Below, in pieces: positions 3,273 through 64,000 of a DNA stretch of 64,000 nucleotides (positions are counted from its first letter, which is position 1; every line of letters starts with the position of its first letter). The notes under the pieces are model-generated. The model searched no databases. It was not told where the DNA came from and saw nothing but the letters and a program-made list of their open reading frames with translations. The DNA lies in contig NZ_CP036402.1 of NCBI RefSeq assembly GCF_004322855.1, forward strand, positions 3,224,001-3,288,000, given 5' to 3'. Origin of the DNA: Egibacter rhizosphaerae. Its GTDB lineage: Bacteria; Actinomycetota; Nitriliruptoria; Euzebyales; Egibacteraceae. Both the position numbers and the translations under genes were made by a program.

Positions 3273-4679
3273 CTACTCGAAGGCCGCCACCTCGACATCG
3301 CCGTCCTCGGTCACGCCGGCCACGTGGATCCGACCGTCGCGGACGGTGACGTCGTTCGTCCACGCCCAGTCGACCGCGTCGAGCGTGAGCGACCACCGTT
3401 CGTCCCCGGTGTCGCTGTCGATGGCGAACAGGCGGGGCGCGTCGCCGCCGGAGACGACGCCCACCAGCGTCGTCTCGACCCCGGTGACCGCGGAGATGCT
3501 GCCGTCCGGCAGTTCGGGCGTGGCCTCCCACTGCTGCTCCCCGTCGGCCGGGTCGATCCCTACCAGGCGGCCCGCGGCCCACTCCTCCCAGACCAGCGTG
3601 TCGCCGACCGCAGTGAGCTGCCCGTCGTCGGGCCCGGGCGACGTGGACCAGCGCTCCTCGCCGCTGTCGATCGACACCGCGACCACCTCGTGGGCGGTGG
3701 TGTCGCCGACATCGCGCGACAATGCGGCGAATACCGTGTTGCCGAGCACCGGGGTCGCGCCGGCGGTGAAGCGGTGGTCGGCCATGCCACGGCCGCTGAG
3801 CGCGTAGTGCCATCGCTCCTCACCACTCTCCCCCGAGAGCGCGACGAGTTCGGGTCCCGCGCCACGATCGAGGCGGAGGAACGCCGTGTCCTCCGCTGCC
3901 GCGAACGTGTTGAACTGGAAGGCCGGGTCGAAGTCGCCGAGGTGCTGCTCCCAACGGTCCTCGCCGGTGTTGAGATCGACGCGGGCGATGCGCTCGCCGA
4001 AGCCGTCCTGGTCCGTGCGGTGCATGAGCACGTCGGTGTCGACCATCACCAGCGGGGTTGCGTCGTCCGGCTCGCTCCACCGGTGCTCGCCGTCGAACCC
4101 GACGGCGCCCCGGGCGTGCACGACGCCGTTGTGGACCCACAGCTCAGGGCCCTGCGGGTCCACCGTTTCGGACCCGTGGATGTCCCCGCTGTCGGGGTCG
4201 AGGCGGTGCAGCCGTCCGTCATGGGTGCGCGCGAACAGCTGGCCGCCGACGGACACCAGGTTGGCCCACGGCTCAGGGGACTCGCCGGGGCCGACGTCGA
4301 GCTCGGCGGTCCAGACCGGTTCGGCGGAGGGCTCGCCGGGCGCGGGCCCCGGCTCGGCGATGGAGCCGTCCGGGTTGTAGCCGTACATCGACGACCGTGG
4401 GTCGGCGTTGGCGAGGTGGGCGCTCCCGCCGGGCACGGCCCAGACGACCACGAGCACGGCCAGGAGCGCGACGACGATGACACCGCCGAGGAGCAGCGCG
4501 CCACGTCCCCCCGCGGGCAACCCCTTGTCGGCCGCCGTGCGCCCGGCCCCGCCGCCCGCGCCCGGCCCCGTCGCATCGGCAGGCTGTGCCCGGTGCGTCG
4601 GGTCGGGGTGCTGTTCGGGCGGGTACCAGTTGCCGTCGCTGGCCTGCCACCAGCCCGCCTCGGGTGTCGTTCCCGCCAT
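3273..4679 (-). CDS. DUF2510-TM-PQQ-like beta-propeller protein
   Basis: 468 aa. Residues ~9-27 form a DUF2510 module (GWWQASDGNWYPPEQHPDP), followed by a transmembrane helix (about 60-82). The rest is a PQQ-like/BamB-type beta-propeller with repeated 'sGeerW' blade motifs (GEDRWEQHL, GEERWHYAL, GEERWSTSP, GEQQWEATP, GDERWSLTL). The propeller should be extracellular. Such propellers usually bind proteins or peptides; no catalytic site is visible. The gene starts 9 bp after the stop of the upstream zinc-ribbon gene, so the two are probably co-transcribed. Confidence 0.85.
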   Translation of the reverse strand: MAGTTPEAGWWQASDGNWYPPEQHPDPTHRAQPADATGPGAGGGAGRTAADKGLPAGGRGALLLGGVIVVALLAVLVVVWAVPGGSAHLANADPRSSMYGYNPDGSIAEPGPAPGEPSAEPVWTAELDVGPGESPEPWANLVSVGGQLFARTHDGRLHRLDPDSGDIHGSETVDPQGPELWVHNGVVHARGAVGFDGEHRWSEPDDATPLVMVDTDVLMHRTDQDGFGERIARVDLNTGEDRWEQHLGDFDPAFQFNTFAAAEDTAFLRLDRGAGPELVALSGESGEERWHYALSGRGMADHRFTAGATPVLGNTVFAALSRDVGDTTAHEVVAVSIDSGEERWSTSPGPDDGQLTAVGDTLVWEEWAAGRLVGIDPADGEQQWEATPELPDGSISAVTGVETTLVGVVSGGDAPRLFAIDSDTGDERWSLTLDAVDWAWTNDVTVRDGRIHVAGVTEDGDVEVAAFE

Positions 4680-6167: not shown

Positions 6168-7439
6168 CTACGCGCCCAAGAGCGCGAGAGGAACGACGGC
6201 TACCCCGTCCGCTCGTCGGTAAGCCTGCGGTCCCGAGTTCAGTACGACCTTGTCGAGGACGCGGTTCCCGATCTGCTCCTCGAGCCAGTTCAAGTGCCGG
6301 ACGTCGGAATCGTCGACTGTCGTGGACAGCTTTACCTCGATCGCGACGACGTCACCGCCTCCGGTCTCGACGATGAGGTCGACTTCGTGCTCGCCGCCAT
6401 AGGTACGGAGATGCGACACCGTCGCCTCGCTGTGCTGGGCGAACACACGCACCGATAGTGCCCCCAGCGACTCGAAGAACCCACCGAGCAGAACGCCATC
6501 CCGCGGCAGGGTCACGCCGCCGCTGTCACCGGCGAGGAGCGCCTTGGCGTCCAGACCGAGGAGGCGCACTGCGAGGGCTGGATCGGCAAGGTGATGCTTC
6601 GGCGTCTGCGTGAGTCGATGAAGGTGGGTGGATCCGGGGTGCCAGGCGGGTAGTGGATCGAGGATGCGCAGGTCGGTGAGGGCGTCGATGTAGGGCGAGG
6701 TCGTCGTCTTCGCTGGCTTCTCCCCATGGCCGTGAGTTGCGGCATCCCTCACCTTTTCATAGGAGACCGCTTCTGCGGCTGCGGCGGCGTAGGCAGTAAA
6801 CCAGGCACGGAGTTTGGACGGGCTTCTGATCCTGTGTCCTACCTCACCGACGTCGCGGTCGATGATCCTGTCGAGGTAACCGTCGAGCTGCGTACGAAGC
6901 GCTCGCCCGGAGTGCTCGCGCAGCCCAGGGAACCCGGACCAGATGATCTCGTGCGTGTAGTTGCTCATCGAAAGGCTAGTCGTGCCGGTCACTGGCCCAC
7001 GGGTGCCGGTGAGCAGCTCGGCGAGGCTCACGGTCGGCTCGTAGTCGCTCCGCTCTGGAAGCGTCATCGGGCGCATCCTCGCGGTGACGATCCGCGCGGC
7101 GCCGGAGTGGGTGGTGGTTCGTGACGCTGCAGATCCAGTCAACACGAACGTGCCGGGAGCCGCGTCAGCGTCCACGGCGCGCTTGACGACGTCCCACACC
7201 GCAGGGAACAGCTGCCACTCGTCGATCAATATCGGCGGTGGGTCCTTCGTGACGATGGTTGGGTCGGCCTGGATGATCTGAAGCTGAGCTGGGTCGTCCA
7301 GCCGCCAGACGCTCTGCGCGCGCCGGAGCGCCGTCTCGGTCTTTCCCACGCCCTTTGGCCCGTCGAGCATGACGGCAGGCAACTGCGGCAGAACCTCGTC
7401 GAGCTCGTCATCGACGACGCGACGGATATAGCCGGCCAT
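6168..7439 (-). CDS. AAA ATPase with DUF4143 domain
   Basis: 423 aa. Walker A GPKGVGKT (27-34) and Walker B ILIDEWQ (70-76) define the AAA_14 ATPase module. The C-terminal DUF4143 domain includes a PD-(D/E)xK-like EVDLIVETGGGDVVAIEVKLS stretch, split here as EVDLIVE and AIEVK. Family members are widespread, often in accessory DNA, with unsettled function; DNA-linked nuclease/ATPase roles have been proposed. A second, divergent family member sits at 62846-64000. The upstream DNA holds a 4 x 23-bp tandem repeat starting 54 bp from the ATG, which could regulate it. Confidence 0.9.
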   Translation of the reverse strand: MAGYIRRVVDDELDEVLPQLPAVMLDGPKGVGKTETALRRAQSVWRLDDPAQLQIIQADPTIVTKDPPPILIDEWQLFPAVWDVVKRAVDADAAPGTFVLTGSAASRTTTHSGAARIVTARMRPMTLPERSDYEPTVSLAELLTGTRGPVTGTTSLSMSNYTHEIIWSGFPGLREHSGRALRTQLDGYLDRIIDRDVGEVGHRIRSPSKLRAWFTAYAAAAAEAVSYEKVRDAATHGHGEKPAKTTTSPYIDALTDLRILDPLPAWHPGSTHLHRLTQTPKHHLADPALAVRLLGLDAKALLAGDSGGVTLPRDGVLLGGFFESLGALSVRVFAQHSEATVSHLRTYGGEHEVDLIVETGGGDVVAIEVKLSTTVDDSDVRHLNWLEEQIGNRVLDKVVLNSGPQAYRRADGVAVVPLALLGA

Positions 7440-7492
7440 GTACCCCCTCTCTGGTAACTCAGAGGGACAGTCCGGTGCACTGACTCGCTACG

Positions 7493-7584
7493 CTACCATC
7501 CATCGAACATTTGCACTACCATCCATCGAACATTTGCACTACCATCCATCGAACGTCTGCGCTGCCATCCATCGAACGTCTGCA
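7493..7584. repeat. 4 x 23-bp direct tandem repeat upstream of the DUF4143 gene
   Basis: Units begin at 7493, 7516, 7539 and 7562 with the core CTACCATCCATCGAAC. The first two are identical; units 3 and 4 differ at a few bases. The AT content is clearly above the surroundings. The position directly upstream of the divergently read ATPase start suggests an iteron-like operator or regulatory array. Confidence 0.92.
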
Positions 7585-7712
7585 CTACTGGGACGCAGCC
7601 CCAGCGGGGTCCGCGGCCCGTGAAAGCTCGTGAAGGCAAGCCGCCCTCCTGTCGAACGAGAGGAGTACGCGCTGAGGCCCAGGGTCCCACTCACAGGGCT
7701 CTGGGCGAGGCG

Positions 7713-7758: not shown

Positions 7759-7935
7759 CGTGACAATATCGTCACTTTCAGCGTGGAGGCCCTATCGTGA
7801 CTGTCCTGTCACACGCGCACAGATCCCCCGTACCCCACCATGCGGGACCATGCCCACGACCCTGATGATGGCGGCCATGAGCCCTCGACGAGCGGCGGCC
7901 TGCGCCGGTCCGGCCGCGACGGAGGCAGCCGGCCG

Positions 7936-10629
7936 ATGAGTGAACCGCCGGGGCCGGGCTGGTGGCAGGCCAGCGACGGCGAGTGGTACAGCCCGGAGCG
8001 CCACCCTGACCCGGCGCATCGTGCTCGCTTCGCTGCCGCCGCGTCGCGGGAGCCGGATCGGCTCGCGTCGGCGGGGCGCGTCCGGTCCCGTCGCCGACGC
8101 CGCGCCGCGGTCGCCCTCGCGGCCGCGGGCCTGGCGGTCGCCGTCGGCGGCGTCGGCACGGTAAGGCTCCTGTGGGCGCCTTCCGATGCCGAAGTGAGCG
8201 GCGGCAACACAGCTGGCAGCCCCGGGGGTGACTCGGCAGGCAGCACCGCCGATGCGCAGGCGGGCGCACTCGCCTGGGAGGACGACGAGGTGGTCGTCGA
8301 GGTCGCCGAGGGCGGCGCGGCCACGATCGTGGCTGGCTTCGAGGCCGCTGACGGGGTCAGCGATCCGCACGTCGAGGTCTCCGACGAGCTGGCCGACGCC
8401 CTGGCCGTCGTCGACGCGGTGCCGGACGCTGCACTGCCGGCCGGCGCGGGCGAGCTCGCCTTGGTCGCCGAGGCGCCGCCGGAGGCCGATGTCGGCGACA
8501 CCGTGACGGGCGAGGTGGCGGTACGCGACGGCGACGGGTCCGCGGGAGGCCCGCTGGCGGTGACCGTCGAGGTGGTGGCCGCCGGTGGCGACGGCGCGCT
8601 CGACCGGCCGCTGCAGCCGGCCTCCCACCGCATCGGCGAGGCCCGCCCGCTCGGACGTGCGGTGGTCGACGAGGCACTGGTCGTCATCGACCGCGAGGAG
8701 GCCGACGGTGGTCCGGCCGCCACCGCGCGCGCCGTCGCCGACGACCACGGGGCCACGGTGGTGGGCGCCACCCCGCCCGCCGCGATGTACCAGCTCCGCG
8801 TCGACGACGCCCACGACCCCGACGACGCCCACGACCCCGACGACGCCCACGACCCTGACGGCGCCGACGACCCCGACGACGCCCACGACGCGTTGGAGGG
8901 AGCGCTCGCCGGACTGGACGACGACGACCGTGTCGCCTCGGCCACCCGACACGTGCTCGGTGGCGGCCCAGCGGGCCAGGCCGACCCTCCGAGGCCCGCC
9001 GCGCCGCTCTGGGACGACAGCTGGGACGGCGAGCCGCGCGGCAACAACTGGCACCTCCAGCAGGCCCGCGTGCCCGAGGCGTGGGGGCACCAGACCGACG
9101 CCGGCGGGGTGCACGTGGCCGTCATCGACGGCGACTTCAGCCCCAGCCACCCTGATCTGAACTTCGCCGCGGTCCACGGCGAGCGCGCGACCGCCGAGCA
9201 TCACGGCAGCATGGTCGCCGGCGTCGCCTGCGCCGACGGCCACAACGGCGCGGGGATCAGCGGGGTGGCTTGGGACTGCGATCTGCACGGCCACGACGTG
9301 TTCTGGAACGCCCTTACCGACCTGCCGGCCCCCGACGCCGACCCCGACGACCCCGACCCCGACGACCCCGAGGATGACGGGCTCCGCTACGAAGCCGGCG
9401 ACCACGTGCTGTCCCGGCCCCTGGTCCATCAGGCGCTGGTCCGGGCGATCGAGGACGGCGCGGACGTCATCAACCTCAGCTTCGGGACGCAACTCGAGGA
9501 TGGCGCTGACTGCACGGTGTTCGACGATCCCGAGGTCCGCGAGCACCTGCGCGACCTCCGATTCGAGACGGTCGAGGTCCTGACTCAGGCGGTCGCGGAG
9601 CACCGCCACGAGCCGCTGATCGTGGTCGCCGCCGGCAACGACGCCTGCGAGGAGGAACTGCTCTGGCCCGGCAGCGTGGCCGACGAGGTGCCGGTCCCGG
9701 TCGTCACCGTGGGTGCGACGACCGAGCACAAGCAGCTGTCGGACTTCTCCAACCGCGGCGCCAGCGTCGACATCGCCGCGCCGGGTGGGCGCAGCGGGGC
9801 CGGGCGCGTCGGCGACGAGTTCGACCACATCCTCTCGACCTCCACCAGCGCCTGTGCCTGGGCGCCGGCCATCAGCCGCGGGTGCCAGGGCGGGGTGCAC
9901 GACCTCGCGTACGGCACGTCCTTCTCCGCTCCGATCGTGACCGGCGCCGCCGCGCTGATGATGGCGGCTGAGCCCGACCTGACCGCCGAGCAGGCCCGAG
10001 CGTGTCTGCTGGCCTCCGCGGACGGCCGCGACGTGGGCGGCCAGCCGTTCGGCGTGCTCGACGCCGCCACCGCCGTCGAGTGCGCCGGCGATCCCGACGT
10101 CGCGGCCCACCCAGACGATCCCGGCGCGCCGGACGTTGCCGACGAGCCTCACGACTCCGGCGCCGGCGAGGAGCCTCCCGAGGAGGGTGGGCCCGCTGGC
10201 GTCCGCGACGTCGACTGGGCCACGCGCGCCTACGACCCGCTGTGCGACGGCGAGCCCGGCGAGGTGCGCGACGGCGAGTGGGTGCCGGGCCCCGGCGACG
10301 CGCCCGACGCCCTGCGCCTGGACGTCGACGGCGTCGCGTGGGAGTACGGCCACGTGGAGGGCCACGATGGCGAGGTCGCGCTCGTGACCTTCGCGTGCGC
10401 GTTGGGGGCGTCGACCGGTTGGGGGGAGGTGCAGGTGTTCGGCGTCGAGGACGGCGAGGTCATCGACGTCGGTGGTCGCCTGGTCGGCTCACAGCCCGCG
10501 TTCGAGGACGGCGGGCTGCGCCTGACCCGCTACGAGTACGTCGACGACGACCCGCGCTGCTGCCCCAGCATCGAGGAGACGCTGCGGCTGCGTCTGGGCC
10601 CCGACGGCGAGTGGGTCGAGCGGCCCTGA
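7936..10629 (+). CDS. membrane-anchored S8 subtilase with N-terminal DUF2510 module
   Basis: 897 aa from ATG 7936, chosen because it places the DUF2510 module (PGWWQASDGEWYSPERHPDP) at the N-terminus as in neighbouring genes; an in-frame ATG at 7840 is the alternative. A basic stretch and a transmembrane helix follow (about 55-75). A prodomain-like region contains short HDPDDA repeats. The peptidase S8 domain has an apparently intact triad: D398 (AVIDGD), H423 (HHGSMVAG) and S662 (YGTSFSAP), with oxyanion N568 (AAGND). The C-terminal ~140 residues are unassigned and end with a CCPS motif. It should be an active extracellular serine protease tethered to the membrane. Unlike most secreted subtilases it keeps a cytosolic module. 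Confidence 0.88.
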   Translation: MSEPPGPGWWQASDGEWYSPERHPDPAHRARFAAAASREPDRLASAGRVRSRRRRRAAVALAAAGLAVAVGGVGTVRLLWAPSDAEVSGGNTAGSPGGDSAGSTADAQAGALAWEDDEVVVEVAEGGAATIVAGFEAADGVSDPHVEVSDELADALAVVDAVPDAALPAGAGELALVAEAPPEADVGDTVTGEVAVRDGDGSAGGPLAVTVEVVAAGGDGALDRPLQPASHRIGEARPLGRAVVDEALVVIDREEADGGPAATARAVADDHGATVVGATPPAAMYQLRVDDAHDPDDAHDPDDAHDPDGADDPDDAHDALEGALAGLDDDDRVASATRHVLGGGPAGQADPPRPAAPLWDDSWDGEPRGNNWHLQQARVPEAWGHQTDAGGVHVAVIDGDFSPSHPDLNFAAVHGERATAEHHGSMVAGVACADGHNGAGISGVAWDCDLHGHDVFWNALTDLPAPDADPDDPDPDDPEDDGLRYEAGDHVLSRPLVHQALVRAIEDGADVINLSFGTQLEDGADCTVFDDPEVREHLRDLRFETVEVLTQAVAEHRHEPLIVVAAGNDACEEELLWPGSVADEVPVPVVTVGATTEHKQLSDFSNRGASVDIAAPGGRSGAGRVGDEFDHILSTSTSACAWAPAISRGCQGGVHDLAYGTSFSAPIVTGAAALMMAAEPDLTAEQARACLLASADGRDVGGQPFGVLDAATAVECAGDPDVAAHPDDPGAPDVADEPHDSGAGEEPPEEGGPAGVRDVDWATRAYDPLCDGEPGEVRDGEWVPGPGDAPDALRLDVDGVAWEYGHVEGHDGEVALVTFACALGASTGWGEVQVFGVEDGEVIDVGGRLVGSQPAFEDGGLRLTRYEYVDDDPRCCPSIEETLRLRLGPDGEWVERP

Positions 10630-10631
10630 GA

Positions 10632-11657
10632 TCAGTCCTCGTCGGCGGCGACCTCGTCGAGGTGGGCCTCGATCCCGCTGACGAGGGCGTCGGCGAGCTC
10701 GGCGCGCCCCGACTCGCTCGCCAGCGTGGCGGCGTCGTCGGGGTTGCCCATGTTCCCGACCTCGACGAGCACGGCGGGCACGTCCGAGCGGTTCAGCGTG
10801 CCCAGGTCGTCGCGTTGGACGAGGCCGTGCTCGCCGACGTAGGTCGCCGGTTCGCGGCCCGCATCGAGGAACGCGTCCCGGATGTGCGCCGCGAGGATCG
10901 CCGAGGGCTCGACGATGTGCTCGGTGTGGCCCTCGACGGCGTCGGGGTGGATGACGTGGAACCCGTGGGCCTGCGCCGGTGCCCCGTCGGCGTGGATGGA
11001 CACCAGCAGGTCGGCGCCGACCTCGCCGGCGAACGCGCCGCGCTCGTCGATGCACGGTCCCCAGCCCTCGTTGTCCTCGCGGGTCAGGTGGACCTCGGCG
11101 CCCTCGTCCTCGAGCTCGTCGCGCACGACCCGTGACAGGTCCCAGTTGAACCGCGCCTCGGTGTAGCCGTCGTCGGTGACCGCGCCGACGGTGTTGCACT
11201 GCTTGGTGAGCCCACCGGCGTCGACCGGCTGCTGGATCTCCTCGGGATGGTCCGCGTTGCCGCCGTTGTGGCCGGGGTCGATCGCGACCACCGCGCCGTC
11301 GAGGGGGCCGTCCGCGGCCTCTTTCGACCCGCCGTCGTCCTCGTCGGTCGGCTCGTCGTCCTCCTCGGGGTCGTCCTCGCCGCCGTCGTGGTGGCCCGCA
11401 TCTCCGCCGAGTCCGTCGTCGTCGACCTCGCCGGGGTCCTCGTCGGACTCGTCGGGGTCGTCGGCTCCGTCGGAGTCGAATCCGTCGAATCCGTCGAATC
11501 CGTCGGATCCCTCGGGTGCGTCGGGTGGCTCGTCGGCCGGCGGGGTCGCGTCGTCGGTCCCGTCGGCACCGGCGGTCGCCTCGGGTTCTTCCCCCTCCCC
11601 GCAGCTCGCCAGGGCCAGCGCGCCCACCAGGAGCGCGACGATCAGCCGCACGCGCAT
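10632..11657 (-). CDS. lipoprotein N-acetylmuramoyl-L-alanine amidase (Amidase_3)
   Basis: 341 aa. A lipoprotein signal ends at LASC (C19), so the protein should be lipid-anchored. An acidic low-complexity linker (30-120) contains FDGFDG repeats. The Amidase_3 domain shows zinc ligands H130 (DPGHNGG), E167 and H222 (SIHADG), and catalytic E299 (LVEVGNMGN). It should cleave the amide bond between MurNAc and L-alanine in peptidoglycan. Its start follows AGAGGAGTG and lies just downstream of a decayed DUF2510 gene. It is convergent with the subtilase gene, with only 2 bp between them. Confidence 0.92.
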   Translation of the reverse strand: MRVRLIVALLVGALALASCGEGEEPEATAGADGTDDATPPADEPPDAPEGSDGFDGFDGFDSDGADDPDESDEDPGEVDDDGLGGDAGHHDGGEDDPEEDDEPTDEDDGGSKEAADGPLDGAVVAIDPGHNGGNADHPEEIQQPVDAGGLTKQCNTVGAVTDDGYTEARFNWDLSRVVRDELEDEGAEVHLTREDNEGWGPCIDERGAFAGEVGADLLVSIHADGAPAQAHGFHVIHPDAVEGHTEHIVEPSAILAAHIRDAFLDAGREPATYVGEHGLVQRDDLGTLNRSDVPAVLVEVGNMGNPDDAATLASESGRAELADALVSGIEAHLDEVAADED

Positions 11658-11741: not shown

Positions 11742-11850
11742 GGCCGGGGGCTCCGGGGGAGTCTGCGCGAACCGCGCGGTAGGCCGAGTCGGCGTGCTGC
11801 TCGGGCGGGCACCAGAAGCCGTCGTTGGCCTGTCACGCTCCCCGGCTCAT
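11742..11850 (-). pseudogene. DUF2510 N-terminal remnant with nonsense codon
   Basis: The ATG at 11850 overlaps the TGA stop of the upstream CW_binding_2 gene (ATGA). Translation gives MSRGA, then TGA, then QANDGFWCPPEQHADSAYR. This aligns with the DUF2510 start MSHGAWQASDGNWYPSEQHPDPAYR of the gene at 15326, with the conserved TGG (W) changed to TGA. The frame stays open to about the amidase start without a recognisable domain. Confidence 0.7.
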
Positions 11851-13796
11851 GGCGGCTCCACCGCCTCGTCGGGGACGACGCCCGCGTGCACGCCCCAGCG
11901 GGCGCTGCGCAGCGCCTCACCCTCGGGCCCGAGGGTCACCCCGTCCTCACCGGGCACGACCTGCAGCGAGCACTCGCCGAAGCCGGCGCGCCCCATCTCG
12001 ACGCCACCGGGGACGTCGAGCAACGGCGCGCCACGTGGGTCGGTGACGCAGGTCGGCACCGGAGGATCGGGGCTGATCTCGACGAAGTTGGCCGCCTCGC
12101 CTGGCGAGCCGATGACCCGCGGCGCGCCGCGGCGCGGCTCGATGATGACGCCGCCGTGCGTGGCCGCGAACATGTCGCACCCCCAATGCCCGCACTCGGG
12201 ACCGACGATGTAGGCGTCGGGCCCGCCGAATCGATCGGCGACCTCGCGCTGCCGATCGTAGACGCTGCCACGAAGGCGGCGGTCCTCCGCGGCGAGGCCC
12301 GCGTCGCGATCGTCGCGGCGCAGCGCGTCGGCGAAGGCCTCACCGGCGCGCTGCACACCCTCGCGCTGCGCGTCGGGCCCGACACCGTCGGCGCGCAGGA
12401 TGACACGGCGGTCACCCGAGCCGGCGGTCGAGGAGGCATCGACGTCGAAGGCGCCCCGTAGCCGCCACGACGTCGCGTGGCGCTCCAGGCTCGTGGCGGC
12501 GTCGTCCACGCCGAACACCGCCAAGTCCACAGCGCACCCGGCGTCGCCGGGCTCGCAGCGCTCGCCGACCCCGTCGACGGCGAGCACGGTGGCGCCCGCG
12601 AGCGGCTCGCTGTCGAAGGGGCGGGTCGCGGCGTCCGCGTCGACGCGCAGGGCGAGGTCAAGGCGCACCTGCTGGCCATGGTGCCCGTCGAGGTGGTCCA
12701 GCAGGCGCGGCGCGCCGCCGTGGAACGGCTCGACGACCCCGGTGAGCCGCTCGCCGTCGGCACGCAGCGCCGCCTGCCCGGCGGCGGCCGCCGCCACCTG
12801 CGCGAGCACCTCGTCGTCGATCGCGGCGTCGCTGCCCAGGGCCACCACCTCGTCGGGGGCGTGCAGCCGCGCGGCCTCCAACACCGTCGGGCTCACCGGG
12901 CCGGTGCGGGGGGCCAGCATGAGGGGCCCGTCGTCGAGCGCGCCGGCGGCCAGCGCGTCGGGGAAGGTGTCGGCACGGGCCAGGTAGAGCCGCGACGCGT
13001 CTCCGTCGGCGGTGCCGGCAGCCTCGTCGGCGACGCGCGCGGCCGTGTCGAAGCGGTCGCGTCCGTCGAGGCGATCGACGGCGCGGCCCTCCGCGGCCTC
13101 GAGCAGCACTTCGCGAGACAGCGCCGAGCGCCCGCCGAGCCCGACGACCTCGGCGGGGTCGAGCGCCTCGATCGCGTCGGCGAGTCCGCCCGGCAGCGGG
13201 GCGGCGTCGCGGGCCAGCAGCACCGGGCCCGCGTCGATGACCCCGGCCGCCAGCGAGTCGGCGAACTCGTCCGCGCGCGCGAGGTACACGGTGTCGGCGC
13301 CGTCGGGGTAGGCGGCCTCGGCGATGGCCACGGCGGTGGCGAACCGGTCGTCGCCGGCCAAGCGGTCGGTGGCGCGGCCGCCTGCCGCCTCGGTCAACGT
13401 CGCCGACTCGACGGCCGCCGTGCCGCCCAAGGCGACCACGCGTGCCGGGTCGAGGCGCTCGACCTCGTCGACGACCACGTCGGGGACCGGGCCGCCACTG
13501 GGAGTCAGCAGGGTCGGTCCGTCGTCCAAGGCTCCGGCGGCGAGCGCGTCGGCGAACTCGTCGGCGCGCGCGAGGTACGCGGTGTCGGCGCCGTCGGGGT
13601 AGGCGGCCTCGGCGATGGCCACGGCGGTGGCGAACCGGTCGTCGCCGGCCAGCCGTGACGACGCGACCGTCTGGCCGCCCGCGGCCTCGGTCGGCTCCTC
13701 GGCATCGGCGACCCACGGGTCGCTGATCCCCGTGGCGGCCACCGCCACGGCCGACAGTGTCAGCACGCTCAGGACGGCTCGACGAGGGGGTCTCAT
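11847..13796 (-). CDS. secreted protein with three N-terminal CW_binding_2 repeats
   Basis: 649 aa from ATG 13796, chosen because it opens directly onto a signal peptide (RPPRRAVLSVLTLSAVAVAATG); longer in-frame starts lack one. Three CW_binding_2 repeats (about 45-345) carry the R-L/D-G-DRF-TA and LGG signatures. The ~300-residue C-terminal part has several cysteines (GERCEPGDAGC, GPECGHWGC) and is unassigned. CW_binding_2 proteins attach to cell-wall polymers, so it is a surface protein. The stop overlaps the start of a decayed DUF2510 gene, suggesting former translational coupling. Confidence 0.85.
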   Translation of the reverse strand: MRPPRRAVLSVLTLSAVAVAATGISDPWVADAEEPTEAAGGQTVASSRLAGDDRFATAVAIAEAAYPDGADTAYLARADEFADALAAGALDDGPTLLTPSGGPVPDVVVDEVERLDPARVVALGGTAAVESATLTEAAGGRATDRLAGDDRFATAVAIAEAAYPDGADTVYLARADEFADSLAAGVIDAGPVLLARDAAPLPGGLADAIEALDPAEVVGLGGRSALSREVLLEAAEGRAVDRLDGRDRFDTAARVADEAAGTADGDASRLYLARADTFPDALAAGALDDGPLMLAPRTGPVSPTVLEAARLHAPDEVVALGSDAAIDDEVLAQVAAAAAGQAALRADGERLTGVVEPFHGGAPRLLDHLDGHHGQQVRLDLALRVDADAATRPFDSEPLAGATVLAVDGVGERCEPGDAGCAVDLAVFGVDDAATSLERHATSWRLRGAFDVDASSTAGSGDRRVILRADGVGPDAQREGVQRAGEAFADALRRDDRDAGLAAEDRRLRGSVYDRQREVADRFGGPDAYIVGPECGHWGCDMFAATHGGVIIEPRRGAPRVIGSPGEAANFVEISPDPPVPTCVTDPRGAPLLDVPGGVEMGRAGFGECSLQVVPGEDGVTLGPEGEALRSARWGVHAGVVPDEAVEPP

Positions 13797-14090
13797 AGTC
13801 TCGATCCTCACACTCGCTGCCGGCGCGGCAGCCGTCCGGTCAACCCCACGGATCGTGCGGGCGGAGGCGCGGCGGGCCATGGCGGGCTATCCGGGATCCT
13901 CCGGTGGCCCGGCCCGGCGGCACTGCCCGAGGAGGCGCTCGATGAGGCGGGCCGGCGCGCCGAGGCGTCCACCGTCACGCGCGTGCCGGGCCCGCAGCGC
14001 TTCGCCGCCGCCGAGCTCGCTGTCAATGCGATCAGTGATGGACACGATCGAACTCCGGCTGTGAACCCGTGGGCGGCCGGTCGTCGCGCG
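13797..14090. other. intergenic, no recognisable gene
   Basis: About 294 bp between two minus-strand genes. It is open in several frames because of high GC, but no family signature was recognised. It probably holds the promoter of the 13796 gene. Confidence 0.4.
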
Positions 14091-15326
14091 TCAGTCGCCC
14101 GGGGCTGCCTGCTCGAGAACGGTCCGGTCCAGACGCCTCATGGCCCGCACCACGTCGCCCGCCTCGTCGGGATCGGCCGTCGCCCACACGACCGCGCCCT
14201 CGCGCTCGACGCTGGCAATGGTGCCCGCTTCGTCGTCGCTGCGCTCACGCAGCGCCTCGGCGTTGGTCTCGGCGGTCCCGTCGTCGTCGTGCACGAGCAC
14301 GAGGGTCGGGGTGAGCTCCGGCCCGTCCGCCACAGTCGCGTACGCCCCTGCCGCGTAGGGCTCGGGCAGGTGCTCGGCGCCGTCCAGCTCGCCCCAATCA
14401 AGGTCGATCGCCGGCGGCGCGTGGAAGACCCACGCGTAGGCGCTCCGCCCTTCCAGCGCCGCCGCGAGCGTGCGCAGGCCACTCACGTCGCTGAGCCGTC
14501 GCGCGTCGGGGCCGAGCGCGGTGGGCAGTTCCTCCGGGCCGCCGGTGGTCGGGCTCTCGCCGATCGCCACCGTGTCCCCGTCGGGCACGATCGCGCTCGC
14601 GTTGGCCAGCACGGAGTCCTCGCCCTCGCGTTCGAACCACGTCGGGTCGTCGCGGCGTCCCCAGCGGTCATGCTCGTCGAGGCTCGCGGCGACCTCAGCC
14701 GCCTCGTCGCGCAACGTGCCGGCCCAAGCCGAGCCCCCGTGCCACTCCACGAACTGGTCGACGTCGACCGGGCCGAACCCGAGCTCGTCGCCGAACGCGA
14801 CCTCCTCGAGCCGGATCATCGCCGCGATGAAATCGTTGCCCGGCGGCAGCGAGCCTCGCGTGCCGCTCAGCGGGTGGTCATGGTCAGTCGCGGTGTCCGC
14901 GTCCAGGGCCTGCCAGTCGCGCGCGTCGGCGGGTCGTCCCGCGGGCGCAACCTCCCAGCCCAGCTCCAGGTCGCCGAGGACGAGGAACGGCAGCGCCCCG
15001 CCGGTCTCGCGGTAGGGGATCGCGTCCAGCAGTCGCACCAGCGTCCCGTCCGCGTCGTTCGGGTCGGCGGTCTCCTCGACGTCGTTCGCGTCCACCGTCC
15101 CCTCGGCCTCGCCTTCGTCGCCGCCCAACGTGAACGTGGCGACCGTGACGCCGGCGGCTGCGACGACGGCGAGCGCCAGCGCGGCGAGGGTGGGGTCGCG
15201 CCGGCGGCGGACCGCGGGCGGCGGATCCGGGGGAGCTTGTGCGTATCGCGCGCGGTAGGCCGGGTCGGGGTGCTGCTCGGACGGGTACCAGTTGCCGTCG
15301 CTGGCCTGCCACGCTCCGTGGCTCAT
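14091..15326 (-). CDS. DUF2510-TM protein with unassigned extracellular domain
   Basis: 411 aa. The N-terminal DUF2510 module (AWQASDGNWYPSEQHPDPAYR) is followed by a transmembrane helix (about 45-68) and an acidic linker rich in DAND/DPND. The ~320-residue extracellular part (from LVRLLDAIPY onward) was not matched to a family. It has FVEWHGG and TLVLVHDDDGT segments and no obvious catalytic motif. Its ATG overlaps the TGA of the preceding gene (15323-15326), so it is probably translationally coupled to the zinc-ribbon/NTF2-like protein. Confidence 0.75.
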   Translation of the reverse strand: MSHGAWQASDGNWYPSEQHPDPAYRARYAQAPPDPPPAVRRRRDPTLAALALAVVAAAGVTVATFTLGGDEGEAEGTVDANDVEETADPNDADGTLVRLLDAIPYRETGGALPFLVLGDLELGWEVAPAGRPADARDWQALDADTATDHDHPLSGTRGSLPPGNDFIAAMIRLEEVAFGDELGFGPVDVDQFVEWHGGSAWAGTLRDEAAEVAASLDEHDRWGRRDDPTWFEREGEDSVLANASAIVPDGDTVAIGESPTTGGPEELPTALGPDARRLSDVSGLRTLAAALEGRSAYAWVFHAPPAIDLDWGELDGAEHLPEPYAAGAYATVADGPELTPTLVLVHDDDGTAETNAEALRERSDDEAGTIASVEREGAVVWATADPDEAGDVVRAMRRLDRTVLEQAAPGD

Positions 15327-62661: not shown

Positions 62662-62776
62662 GGCTGCGGCAACACACCTCAGGATCCGGCCCCACCACGC
62701 CTTCCAGGCAGGAGCTATTCGCAAACGCGTCGATGGACGATGGCGCAGAACGTCTACGCTAAGGGGCGCAATCTGT

Positions 62777-62803
62777 CTATACTAGTTCCCGCATTCTGTA
62801 TAG
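62777..62803 (+). promoter_or_regulatory. inverted repeat overlapping a -10 before the second DUF4143 gene
   Basis: CTATAC (62777-62782) and GTATAG (62798-62803) are inverted around a 15-bp spacer. TATACT (62778-62783) resembles a -10 element. No good -35 was seen. Confidence 0.4.
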
Positions 62804-62845
62804 GCTGGCCGTCGGCTGGTGGCGACGACATCTCGGAGGGCCGGC

Positions 62846-64000
62846 ATGGCATACCGCCCACGGGTCGTCGGCCGACCTCCAAAAGCGGCTGACTTCGGCC
62901 GGTGCAGTGGTCATCGAGGGACCCAAGGCGTGTGGGAAGACCGAGACCGCCCGTAGGGTCGCCGCCAGCGAGGTCCGACTCGACATCGACGATTCCGCCC
63001 GCCAGGCAGCCGAGATCGACCCGAGCTTGGTGATCGACGGTCAAACGCCGCGCCTGCTCGACGAGTGGCAGGAGTATCCACGCCTGTGGAACCACGTTCG
63101 GCGAGCGGTCGACGACCGTCCTTCTCCGGGCCAGTTCATCCTGACCGGCTCGGCGACGCCCGCAGACTCCGGCGACCGACACACCGGCGCAGGCCGGTTC
63201 TCGTTCCTGCGCATGCGGCCCATGAGTCTGTACGAGAGCGGTGATTCCACCGGTGACGTGTCGCTTGCCGCACTGATGCGCGGCGAGATGCCGCGCGCGG
63301 CTGAAGCCGAGTGCGGGATCGCACAGATCGCCGAACGCATCGTGGTAGGCGGCTGGCCGGCAACGCTCGATCTCGACGTCGGTCGTGCGGCTCGGGCGAA
63401 TCACGACTACCTCGAGCAGGTCAGTCGCGTCGACGTGCGACACGTCGCTGGCCCGCGAAGGGATCCTCAGCGGGTCCAGCGGCTGTTGGCCGCTCTCGCT
63501 CGAAACGTTGCCACCGAAGCTCCTGATGCTCGCCTGGCCGACGACGCGGGTGACGGGAACCAGCCGTTGAATCGGCACACCGTCAGGGACTACCTCGATG
63601 CGCTGGAACGGCTCATGCTCGTGGAGGACCAGCCGGCTTGGGCGCCGCATCTTCGGTCACGCCGGCGCGTGCGCCGATCGGCCAAGCGCCACTTCGTCGA
63701 TCCCTCGCTCGCGGCTGCCGCCTTGCGGGCGGAGCCGGCGCGGCTCCTCGAGGACCTGGGGCTGCTCGGGCGCCTCTTCGAGTCGCTCGTGGTGCGCGAT
63801 CTGCGCGTACTCTCCCAGGCGATCGACGGCGGAGTGCGCCACTACCGCGATGACGCCGGCATCGAAGTCGACGCGATCATCGAGCTGGCCGACGGCAGAT
63901 GGGCCGCGTTCGAAGTCAAGCTCGGTCAGGGCCAGATCGAGCAGGGCGCGACGACGCTGCGACGCTTCTGCGAATCCGTCGACACCGACCGAAGCGGATC
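62846..64000 (+). CDS. AAA ATPase with DUF4143 domain (3' partial, N-terminal frameshift)
   Basis: ATG 62846 follows GGAGGG and encodes AYRPRVVG, but the ATPase body (DLQKRLTSAGAVVIEGPKACGKTETARR) is in the next frame, so a one-base change near 62870 is likely. Walker A is GPKACGKT and Walker B RLLDEWQEYP. The DUF4143 part (LNRHTVRDYLDALERLMLVEDQPAWAP, RLFESLVVRDLRVLSQ) ends with a PD-(D/E)xK-like IEVDAIIEL...AAFEVKLG. The frame runs off the window. It is a distant paralogue of 6168-7439. Confidence 0.8.

Follow-up and report, generated by a model that had tools for sequence, protein, structure and literature searches.

A 23-bp repeat array upstream of a DUF4143 gene

The 64,000-nucleotide stretch of the Egibacter rhizosphaerae chromosome analysed here (NZ_CP036402.1, positions 3,224,001 to 3,288,000), called the window below, carries on its minus strand a gene for a DUF4143 protein of 423 amino acids (6168-7439), for which Pfam, PADLOC and an AF2 model predict the domain order AAA_14 ATPase, wHTH and PD-(D/E)XK nuclease-like domain. 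Its neighbours encode a subtilase (7840-10629), an amidase (10632-11657) and a CWB2 protein (11847-13880), and a WQASDG[NE]WY motif near the N-terminus is common to the ORFs at 3273-4679, 7840-10629 and 14091-15326. An earlier sequence-only reading of the window had described direct 23-bp repeats in front of the DUF4143 gene, richer in AT than the region and beginning 54 bp from the start codon. All of this was confirmed: TRF reported a period of 23 with 4.2 copies and 91% matches at 7493-7588, the GC content was 50% in the array versus 66% and 73% in the flanks, and the first repeat base (7493) lies 54 bp from the ATG (A at 7439). The self-repeat score of the 250 bp upstream of the gene had a z of 46.6 relative to 60 dinucleotide shuffles.

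We set the unit register in gene orientation, so that units end on the predicted -10 box. Read in this way, the array occupies 7485-7599 of the minus strand and starts, next to the gene, with unit 1 (TTCGATGGATGGTAGCGTAGCGA, 7485-7507), which holds the predicted -10 hexamer TAGCGT (7490-7495, minus strand; assigned from the sequence and the family pattern) with TGG before it, as in an extended -10. It is followed by units 2 (7508-7530) and 3 (7531-7553), which have the same sequence, by unit 4 (7554-7576) and by a degenerate fifth unit (7577-7599). Units 1 and 4 are close to the identical units 2 and 3, and all four open with the 12-bp core TTCGATGGATGG. Without mismatches, this core has four sites in the 4.64-Mb genome, all of them in the array; with one mismatch, seven scattered single sites were found. 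A search of 296 genomes of the phylum for the two-unit core with up to 3 mismatches returned one genome, namely its own.

Between the array and the gene, a leader stretch (7440-7468, minus strand) is predicted to fold into a hairpin over the ribosome-binding region, and the nearest orthologue, L013, has a similar leader hairpin. The hairpin is an element separate from the array and may have a role in the window gene. Control at the RNA level by the array itself was rejected because the array precedes the predicted transcription start.

The encoded protein

Pfam assigned residues 21-129 to PF13173 (AAA_14; 40.1 bits, cut-off 27) and residues 195-372 to PF13635 (DUF4143; 87.6 bits, curated cut-off 28.1); these were the only domains found at E values up to 1, and a Rep initiator domain was absent. 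We take the nuclease-like domain to belong to the PD-(D/E)XK superfamily. This assignment agrees with the excerpts of PMC12988326, which describe PDC-S01, a single-gene phage-defence candidate of PADLOC, as an ATPase with a PD-(D/E)XK domain, rank it fourth by frequency among prokaryotic defence systems and state that most candidates of its kind still await validation. Excerpts of a further paper report that no individual locus is more frequent than PDC-S01 in the genomes of the rumen (PMC13356809). The PDC-S01 model PDLC04790 matched residues 1-421 of the window protein with an E value of 8.6e-76, and by this profile the gene is a candidate phage-defence gene with a putative antiviral role. 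The excerpts of the PDC-S01 literature make no mention of a promoter array, whereas the window gene has one.

In the AF2 model (mean pLDDT 91.8), the helices of the wHTH span residues 207-219, 227-234 and 244-256. The residues E352, D354, E368 and K370, located on or beside strands 352-358 and 364-369, were invariant in 53 of 53 aligned proteins (P0001 together with 52 loci from the species-genome scan described below, whose 80 loci are the best of at least 508 relatives), and so were the P-loop residues G27, G32 and K33. The modelled domain thus carries the D ... E-x-K motif of the PD-(D/E)XK superfamily, and cleavage is predicted. The best fold matches, over the AAA and wHTH parts, were the archaeal ATPases PABY2304 (2qen; VIA Z 15.3, rmsd 4.4 over 250) and SSO1545 (2fna; VIA Z 14.5), for which Foldseek gave E 7.7e-6 for 2qen and E 8e-4 for 2fna, TM 0.40; the NLR and CED-4 cores came next, with VIA Z of about 11 to 12.6. 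The VIA-align matches span mostly residues 1-339, and those to 2qen and 2fna end at residue 295 or 294, the PD-(D/E)XK part of the window protein lying beyond. A sequence search of the PDB returned only two weak matches (E 0.083). Judged from the model, the AAA and wHTH parts have a STAND-like AAA plus winged helix fold. We know of no operator array for PABY2304 or SSO1545.

The 23-bp period is the rule in one branch of the family

In a protein search at E 1e-20, 53 of the phylum's 296 genomes had a match. The close group comprised 16 long places, including that of the window itself, with 53-100% identity, besides two fragments at 60-65%; the remaining matches in the phylum had 44% identity or less. 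The upstream DNA of both close and distant relatives contains arrays of other sequences with similar spacing. We rejected the idea that the window array is a local oddity, since what the relatives keep is the period and not the sequence.

The upstream DNA of 117 DUF4143 genes (up to 250 bp each) was searched for the self-repeat period, from 14 to 40 bp, that scored best; the genes were kept from 128 HMM matches after removal of those with no Walker motif, a short upstream region, a short remainder or a repeated upstream region. The best period was 22-24 bp in 33 of the 36 genes of the query branch, and exactly 23 in 30 of them. In the next three tiers, a best period of 22-24 bp was found in 14/24, 10/34 and 4/23 genes, and the controls gave 23/151 (upstream regions of other ORFs of the same loci) and 3/60 (windows 250-500 bp further upstream); the difference between the query branch and the control upstream regions had a p of 3e-18.

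A scan of species genomes, in which loci were chosen by protein only and the best 80 of at least 508 relatives were kept, gave a period of exactly 23 in 73 of these 80 loci and of 22-24 in 76. At least two of the 80 overlap the first 16 (L014 and L135 share a contig of 17,824 bases, L015 and L140 one of 102,841 bases). By title, the 80 loci belong to Actinomycetota, Acidobacteria, Planctomycetes, Proteobacteria, Chloroflexi and others, where single phylum labels may be binning errors because most of the loci are metagenome-assembled contigs. Five plasmid genes (34-57% identity) and seven viral-contig genes from IMG/VR (27-31%) all had a best period of 23 (12/12, scores 10 to 86), the upstream regions of two of them, L232 and L237, being identical. 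In a third, held-out draw taken together with L238, which is also counted among the 12, the period was exactly 23 in 32 of 33 genes; the near-duplicates L255, L259, L260 and L263 as well as L254, which has no Walker motif, had been dropped from an initial 38 genes. The exceptions with a best period outside 22-24 bp amount to 3/36 in the branch, 4/80 in the scan and 1/33 in the third draw. We conclude from these sequence comparisons that the array is a rule of the query branch of the DUF4143 family and that the rule weakens outside this branch. The expectation of a conserved 23-bp period before orthologues was thus borne out (73/80), and of the two contrary outcomes named by the sequence-only reading, orthologues lacking repeats and the same repeat at unrelated loci, neither was seen, as most orthologues have repeats and the core occurs at no other locus of its own genome.

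The identity of units 2 and 3 in the window, with units 1 and 4 close to them, is what a functionless tandem duplication or a VNTR would leave behind. The constant 23-bp spacing and the diverged spacers in orthologues of about 50 to 60% identity speak against such an accident, to which we give almost no weight.

The gene-proximal unit probably contains the promoter

Units could be chained in 95 genes, L014 being left out because of the contig shared with L135. At least three copies were present in 88 of the 95 genes, the number among orthologues ranged from 1 to 6, the step between units was 23 in 219 of 225 cases, and the consensus over all 95 genes was CCGGCGAAATGGTAGCGTAGGGG. The two parts of the unit differ in how far they are shared: the likeness of bases 0-9 is 62% within an array versus 38% between arrays, and that of bases 10-18 is 71% versus 57%.

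Bases 12-17 can form the hexamer TANNNT, which works as a -10 element in actinobacteria. It was present in the gene-proximal copy of 71/94 arrays versus 108/221 of the other copies, and the extended -10 in 41/94 versus 24/221 (p 4e-10). Moreover, the first in-frame start codon lies at most 10 nt after the hexamer in 56 of 90 genes, most commonly at a distance of 6. Because of this enrichment and the nearby starts, we conclude that the promoter probably sits in the gene-proximal unit and that many transcripts of array genes should be leaderless. The window gene differs in this respect, since its ATG is 50 nt after the hexamer and a leaderless start is not seen. As 23 bp is also the distance between the starts of the -35 and -10 elements at 17-bp spacing, the unit may host the promoter in register.

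Coevolution of the repeat with the protein

We calculated couplings between the unit consensus and the varied protein columns (383 residues x 23 bases) with the register taken from the DNA alone; 83 of 94 orthologues were kept at an identity limit of 85%. The strongest coupling linked residue 244 to base 10, where proteins with K had G in 44 cases (A 9, C 3, T 1) and proteins with R had T in 20 (A 4, G 2). The second linked residue 347 to base 5, with C in 28/32 arrays for R or K, G in 20/21 for H and G in 5/6 for Q. The same preferences were found in the first, non-promoter copies alone (T in 18/26 for R244, C in 26/32 for R or K347) and in the last copies alone (16/26 and 27/32). In the AF2 model, the third wHTH helix (244-256) begins with residue 244, and residue 347 is placed in the turn before the strand starting at E352.

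Thirteen couplings exceeded a z of 8 in the array, of which three or more are probably end-gap effects, and none did so among 23 bases taken from outside the array, further upstream; the high scores of residues 412, 415 and 417 with base 17 were judged to be end-gap effects of shortened proteins. The influence of common descent was assessed with 1000 simulated evolutions of the base on a tree inferred after removal of the DNA-binding columns. Neither 244 x base 10 nor 347 x base 5 was reached in any of the 1000 simulations, family-wise over the tested residues. For 245 x base 14, where residue 243 scored as high, the family-wise p was 0.017, and for 274 x base 3 it was 0.013. Two of the six couplings put through the simulation did not pass and were dropped; their family-wise p values were 0.565 (212 x base 4) and 0.997 (261 x base 7). 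Permutation also yielded couplings outside the DNA-binding parts (138 x 19, 327 x 4, 283 x 7 and 127 x 14), not all of which were tree-tested. The couplings 89 x 2 and 205 x 11 came from single odd sequences and left the top list once rare letters were merged; 114 x 3, also from odd single sequences, stayed at a z of 6.2.

Evolutionarily independent pairs on supported branches gave averages of 5.3 agreeing and 0.0 opposing for 244 x base 10 (8 pairs) and 4.6 and 0.0 for 347 x base 5 (6 pairs), with a median sign test p of 0.06, the pairs being too few for firmness. For 243 x base 14, 3.4 agreed and 1.0 opposed, of 7. Residues 258 and 327 had 0.0 and 0.1 in agreement. The coupling 138 x base 19, intended as a control, had 2.3 in agreement and 0.0 in opposition, of 3, and is therefore no clean negative.

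With the register frozen, the code was read in 30 held-out genes with at least two units. Residue 244 again followed base 10 (K: G 11, A 2, T 1; R: T 12, G 1, C 1; p 7e-5), and residue 347 followed base 5 (R or K: C 8/9; H: G 3/3; Q: G 4, T 2, C 1; p 3e-4). The single-unit held-out genes L253, L275 and L277, outside this table, all combine R244 with G, so that R244 is found with T in 12/17 when they are included. The window pair obeys the code as well (K244 with G, Y347 with T). At the level of sequence, the residue-base code largely held in the held-out genes.

Because repeat bases and protein residues coevolve, we regard the DUF4143 protein itself as the probable reader of the array. The earlier proposal of an iteron-like array with a dedicated binding protein is upheld in its second part, with the DUF4143 protein as the supported binder; a role as a replication iteron is not, as the protein has no Rep domain. 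A separate host regulator binding the array would fit the resemblance of part of the unit to promoter elements. It would leave unexplained that the repeat bases vary with residues of the protein encoded next to them, as seen in two data sets, that the array has 13 couplings at z>8 (three or more of them probably from end gaps) and the non-array upstream bases have none, and that the core array is found nowhere else in its own genome, and we consider it very improbable.

Array and gene in close relatives

We compared the DNA of 16 pairs of loci with more than 80% protein identity. In 10 pair comparisons, the main shared stretch corresponded to roughly the gene alone, with no more than 206 bp in front of the array and 132 bp past the stop codon. 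Among the comparisons analysed, the four closest (L137/L150, L137/L152, L181/L212 and L184/L212) show array and gene shared along with 76-206 bp in front of the array and 36-132 bp beyond the stop codon, and L159/L166 have three units and the gene in common, ending 2 bp after the stop codon. The shared DNA of L209/L214 starts 10 bp inside the array, and in other pairs it starts further inside or only with the gene; in L172/L178 and L139/L167, similar DNA begins at the gene, the array being excluded. Where the stop codon was found, the shared DNA ended between 37 bp before and 132 bp after it. A further shared stretch lies downstream in L181/L212 and L137/L152. Two of the 16 pairs share more than the gene region: in L162/L163 the whole contig is shared, and in L149/L197, whose titles both name Pseudonocardia, the flanks are.

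No conserved partner gene, as in a two-gene toxin-antitoxin module, was present in most close pairs, and we noticed neither a transposase in the main shared DNA nor a second array in the shared DNA of close relatives. An empty site was not obtained for the window locus, whose flanks had only short patchy matches across 21 genomes of the family, and these limits of homology were drawn from other relatives. The shared DNA fits a joint transfer of array and gene, with the caveat that metagenome-assembled genomes are involved; the pairs L162/L163, L149/L197, L172/L178, L139/L167, L181/L212 and L137/L152 carry less weight in this respect. In a tblastn search, the window protein matched phage records rarely (5 of 50,697) and 183 of 72,556 plasmid records.

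Tn7 offers a likeness in its TnsA and TnsC proteins, which combine PD-(D/E)XK and AAA+, and in its 22-bp TnsB sites: here, too, PD-(D/E)XK and AAA+ occur with repeats of about 22 bp. A Tn7-like element was rejected, given that the shared DNA of close relatives contains no transposase.

A proposed self-operator

We read the array, its spacing, its overlap with the promoter as a sequence pattern and the repeat-protein coevolution, all of them computed here, as a self-operator, at a probability of about 0.8: the protein would bind the array in its own promoter and repress its expression until a trigger arrives. One protomer would occupy each 23-bp unit, and binding to the array would be cooperative. 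The start of the recognition helix (residues 243-245) would read bases 10-15 of the unit, and the PD-(D/E)XK domain, through residue 347 and perhaps 274, bases 3-5. The constant 23-bp spacing would let protomers stack side by side. As the gene-proximal unit usually holds the -10 box, the last protomer would block RNA polymerase there and keep the expression of a potentially harmful nuclease low. The oligomer might be released or rearranged by a trigger, for which phage infection, sensed by way of the AAA/STAND-like module, is a possible candidate; this would derepress the gene and free the nuclease for a putative role in defence.

The same elements could be weighted differently, with the protein binding its array mainly as a platform on which the nuclease is assembled or held (for storage, arming or the sensing of chromosome loss) and with transcription control as a secondary effect. 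The invariance of the catalytic residues E352, D354, E368 and K370 and of G27, G32 and K33 of the P-loop in 53 proteins would suit such a platform, as would the coupling of a nuclease-domain residue, 347, to the repeat, and the three or more units in 88/95 genes are more than a simple repressor needs. The TANNNT hexamer in the gene-proximal copy of 71/94 arrays points to promoter control instead, and a platform as the main function appears rather unlikely to us.

Activation of the protein's own promoter from the upstream copies, without repression, is still less probable. By eye, the window promoter has no obvious -35, and the upstream copies occupy the positions of an activator; against this, the gene-proximal unit overlaps the -10 itself, where binding normally blocks polymerase. 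An activator with an SSO1545-like ATPase domain does exist in IniR, a mycobacterial STAND ATPase and dedicated transcription regulator, according to the excerpts of PMC5760070. IniR differs from the window protein in that its target is the iniBAC operon, which it activates, and in that its DNA-binding domain is C-terminal and SdiA/LuxR-like, and a self-operator is absent from its description in those excerpts (PMC5760070).

Going beyond the self-operator, we tentatively suggest, as a picture somewhat more doubtful than not, that the branch is self-addressed: each protein would have a private 23-bp array read by a two-residue code, the nuclease domain would co-read it, and the array would act as an operator and, at the same time, as a docking platform on which the nuclease stays counted and harmless until the trigger. 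If the addresses are indeed private, many paralogues could exist in one genome without cross-talk, and array and gene could travel together as a block of about 1.5 kb; the array code suggests how many copies could coexist in a genome. For this branch of PDC-S01, the cognate DNA site and the amino-acid-to-base code provide a concrete candidate ligand, and the code makes binding, regulation and specificity swaps testable together.

Operators in front of the gene of their own binder are familiar from other systems. Plasmid iterons are direct repeats of about two helical turns before the gene of the Rep protein that binds them, and toxin-antitoxin systems and the C proteins of restriction-modification systems have operators before the binder's own gene; all of these serve autoregulation. 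The window protein lacks the Rep domain of the first, most close pairs of array genes lack the shared partner gene of the second, and all three differ from the present case, in which a nuclease-like domain seems to join in the reading. If confirmed, an operator read by a PD-(D/E)XK domain would be unusual as far as we know. RptR is reportedly a repressor of defence islands. The open-access titles, abstract openings and passages that we examined contain no description of an array of this kind.

Other branches of the DUF4143 family

All of the 10 other DUF4143 proteins that we scanned with PADLOC match PDC-S01 models. PDLC04790 is the best model for the array genes L029, L037, L040 and L041 and also for L050, L053 and L054, which have no array and outscore the window protein on it; PDLC04786 is the best model for L102 and L095 (both with a 32-bp period) and for L103 (31 bp). 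Because L050, L053 and L054 also match PDLC04790 best, the array marks one branch, and neither all DUF4143 proteins nor all PDLC04790 matches.

Periods of 31-33 bp form a second mode in the most distant tier, where 9/23 genes have them with a score of 10 or more. Promoter repeats of 31-33 bp, some of them also inverted, were observed in the distant DUF4143 genes L095, L097, L098, L099, L102, L103 and L134. Strong palindromes near the promoter or start codon, and no direct arrays, were observed in L045, L055, L064, L072, L092 and L132. A near-start palindrome scoring above all 20 shuffles was found in 14/34 and 9/23 genes of the two most distant tiers, 5/24 of the middle tier, 4/36 of the array branch and 5/110 controls. 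At the sequence level, other DUF4143 branches are without the 23-bp array, and some have palindromes or a period of 32 bp. Self-operators in various geometries may be common to the DUF4143 family as a whole.

The window itself contains a second DUF4143 gene (62877 onward), preceded on the plus strand by three 23-bp units of another sequence (62744-62812), detected by self-repeat scoring with a best period of 23, a score of 12 and a z of 3.4, a score that does not exceed those of all 60 shuffles. In this region (62744-64000), the ATG at 62846 (MAYRPRVV) is out of frame with the remainder of the protein, and position 22 is the first that the profile match covers, so that the gene start may be frameshifted or located elsewhere. 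A weak 23-bp period (score 10) was also seen in L239 on an Actinomyces oris plasmid, where the gene adjoins a type I-U cas3 gene.
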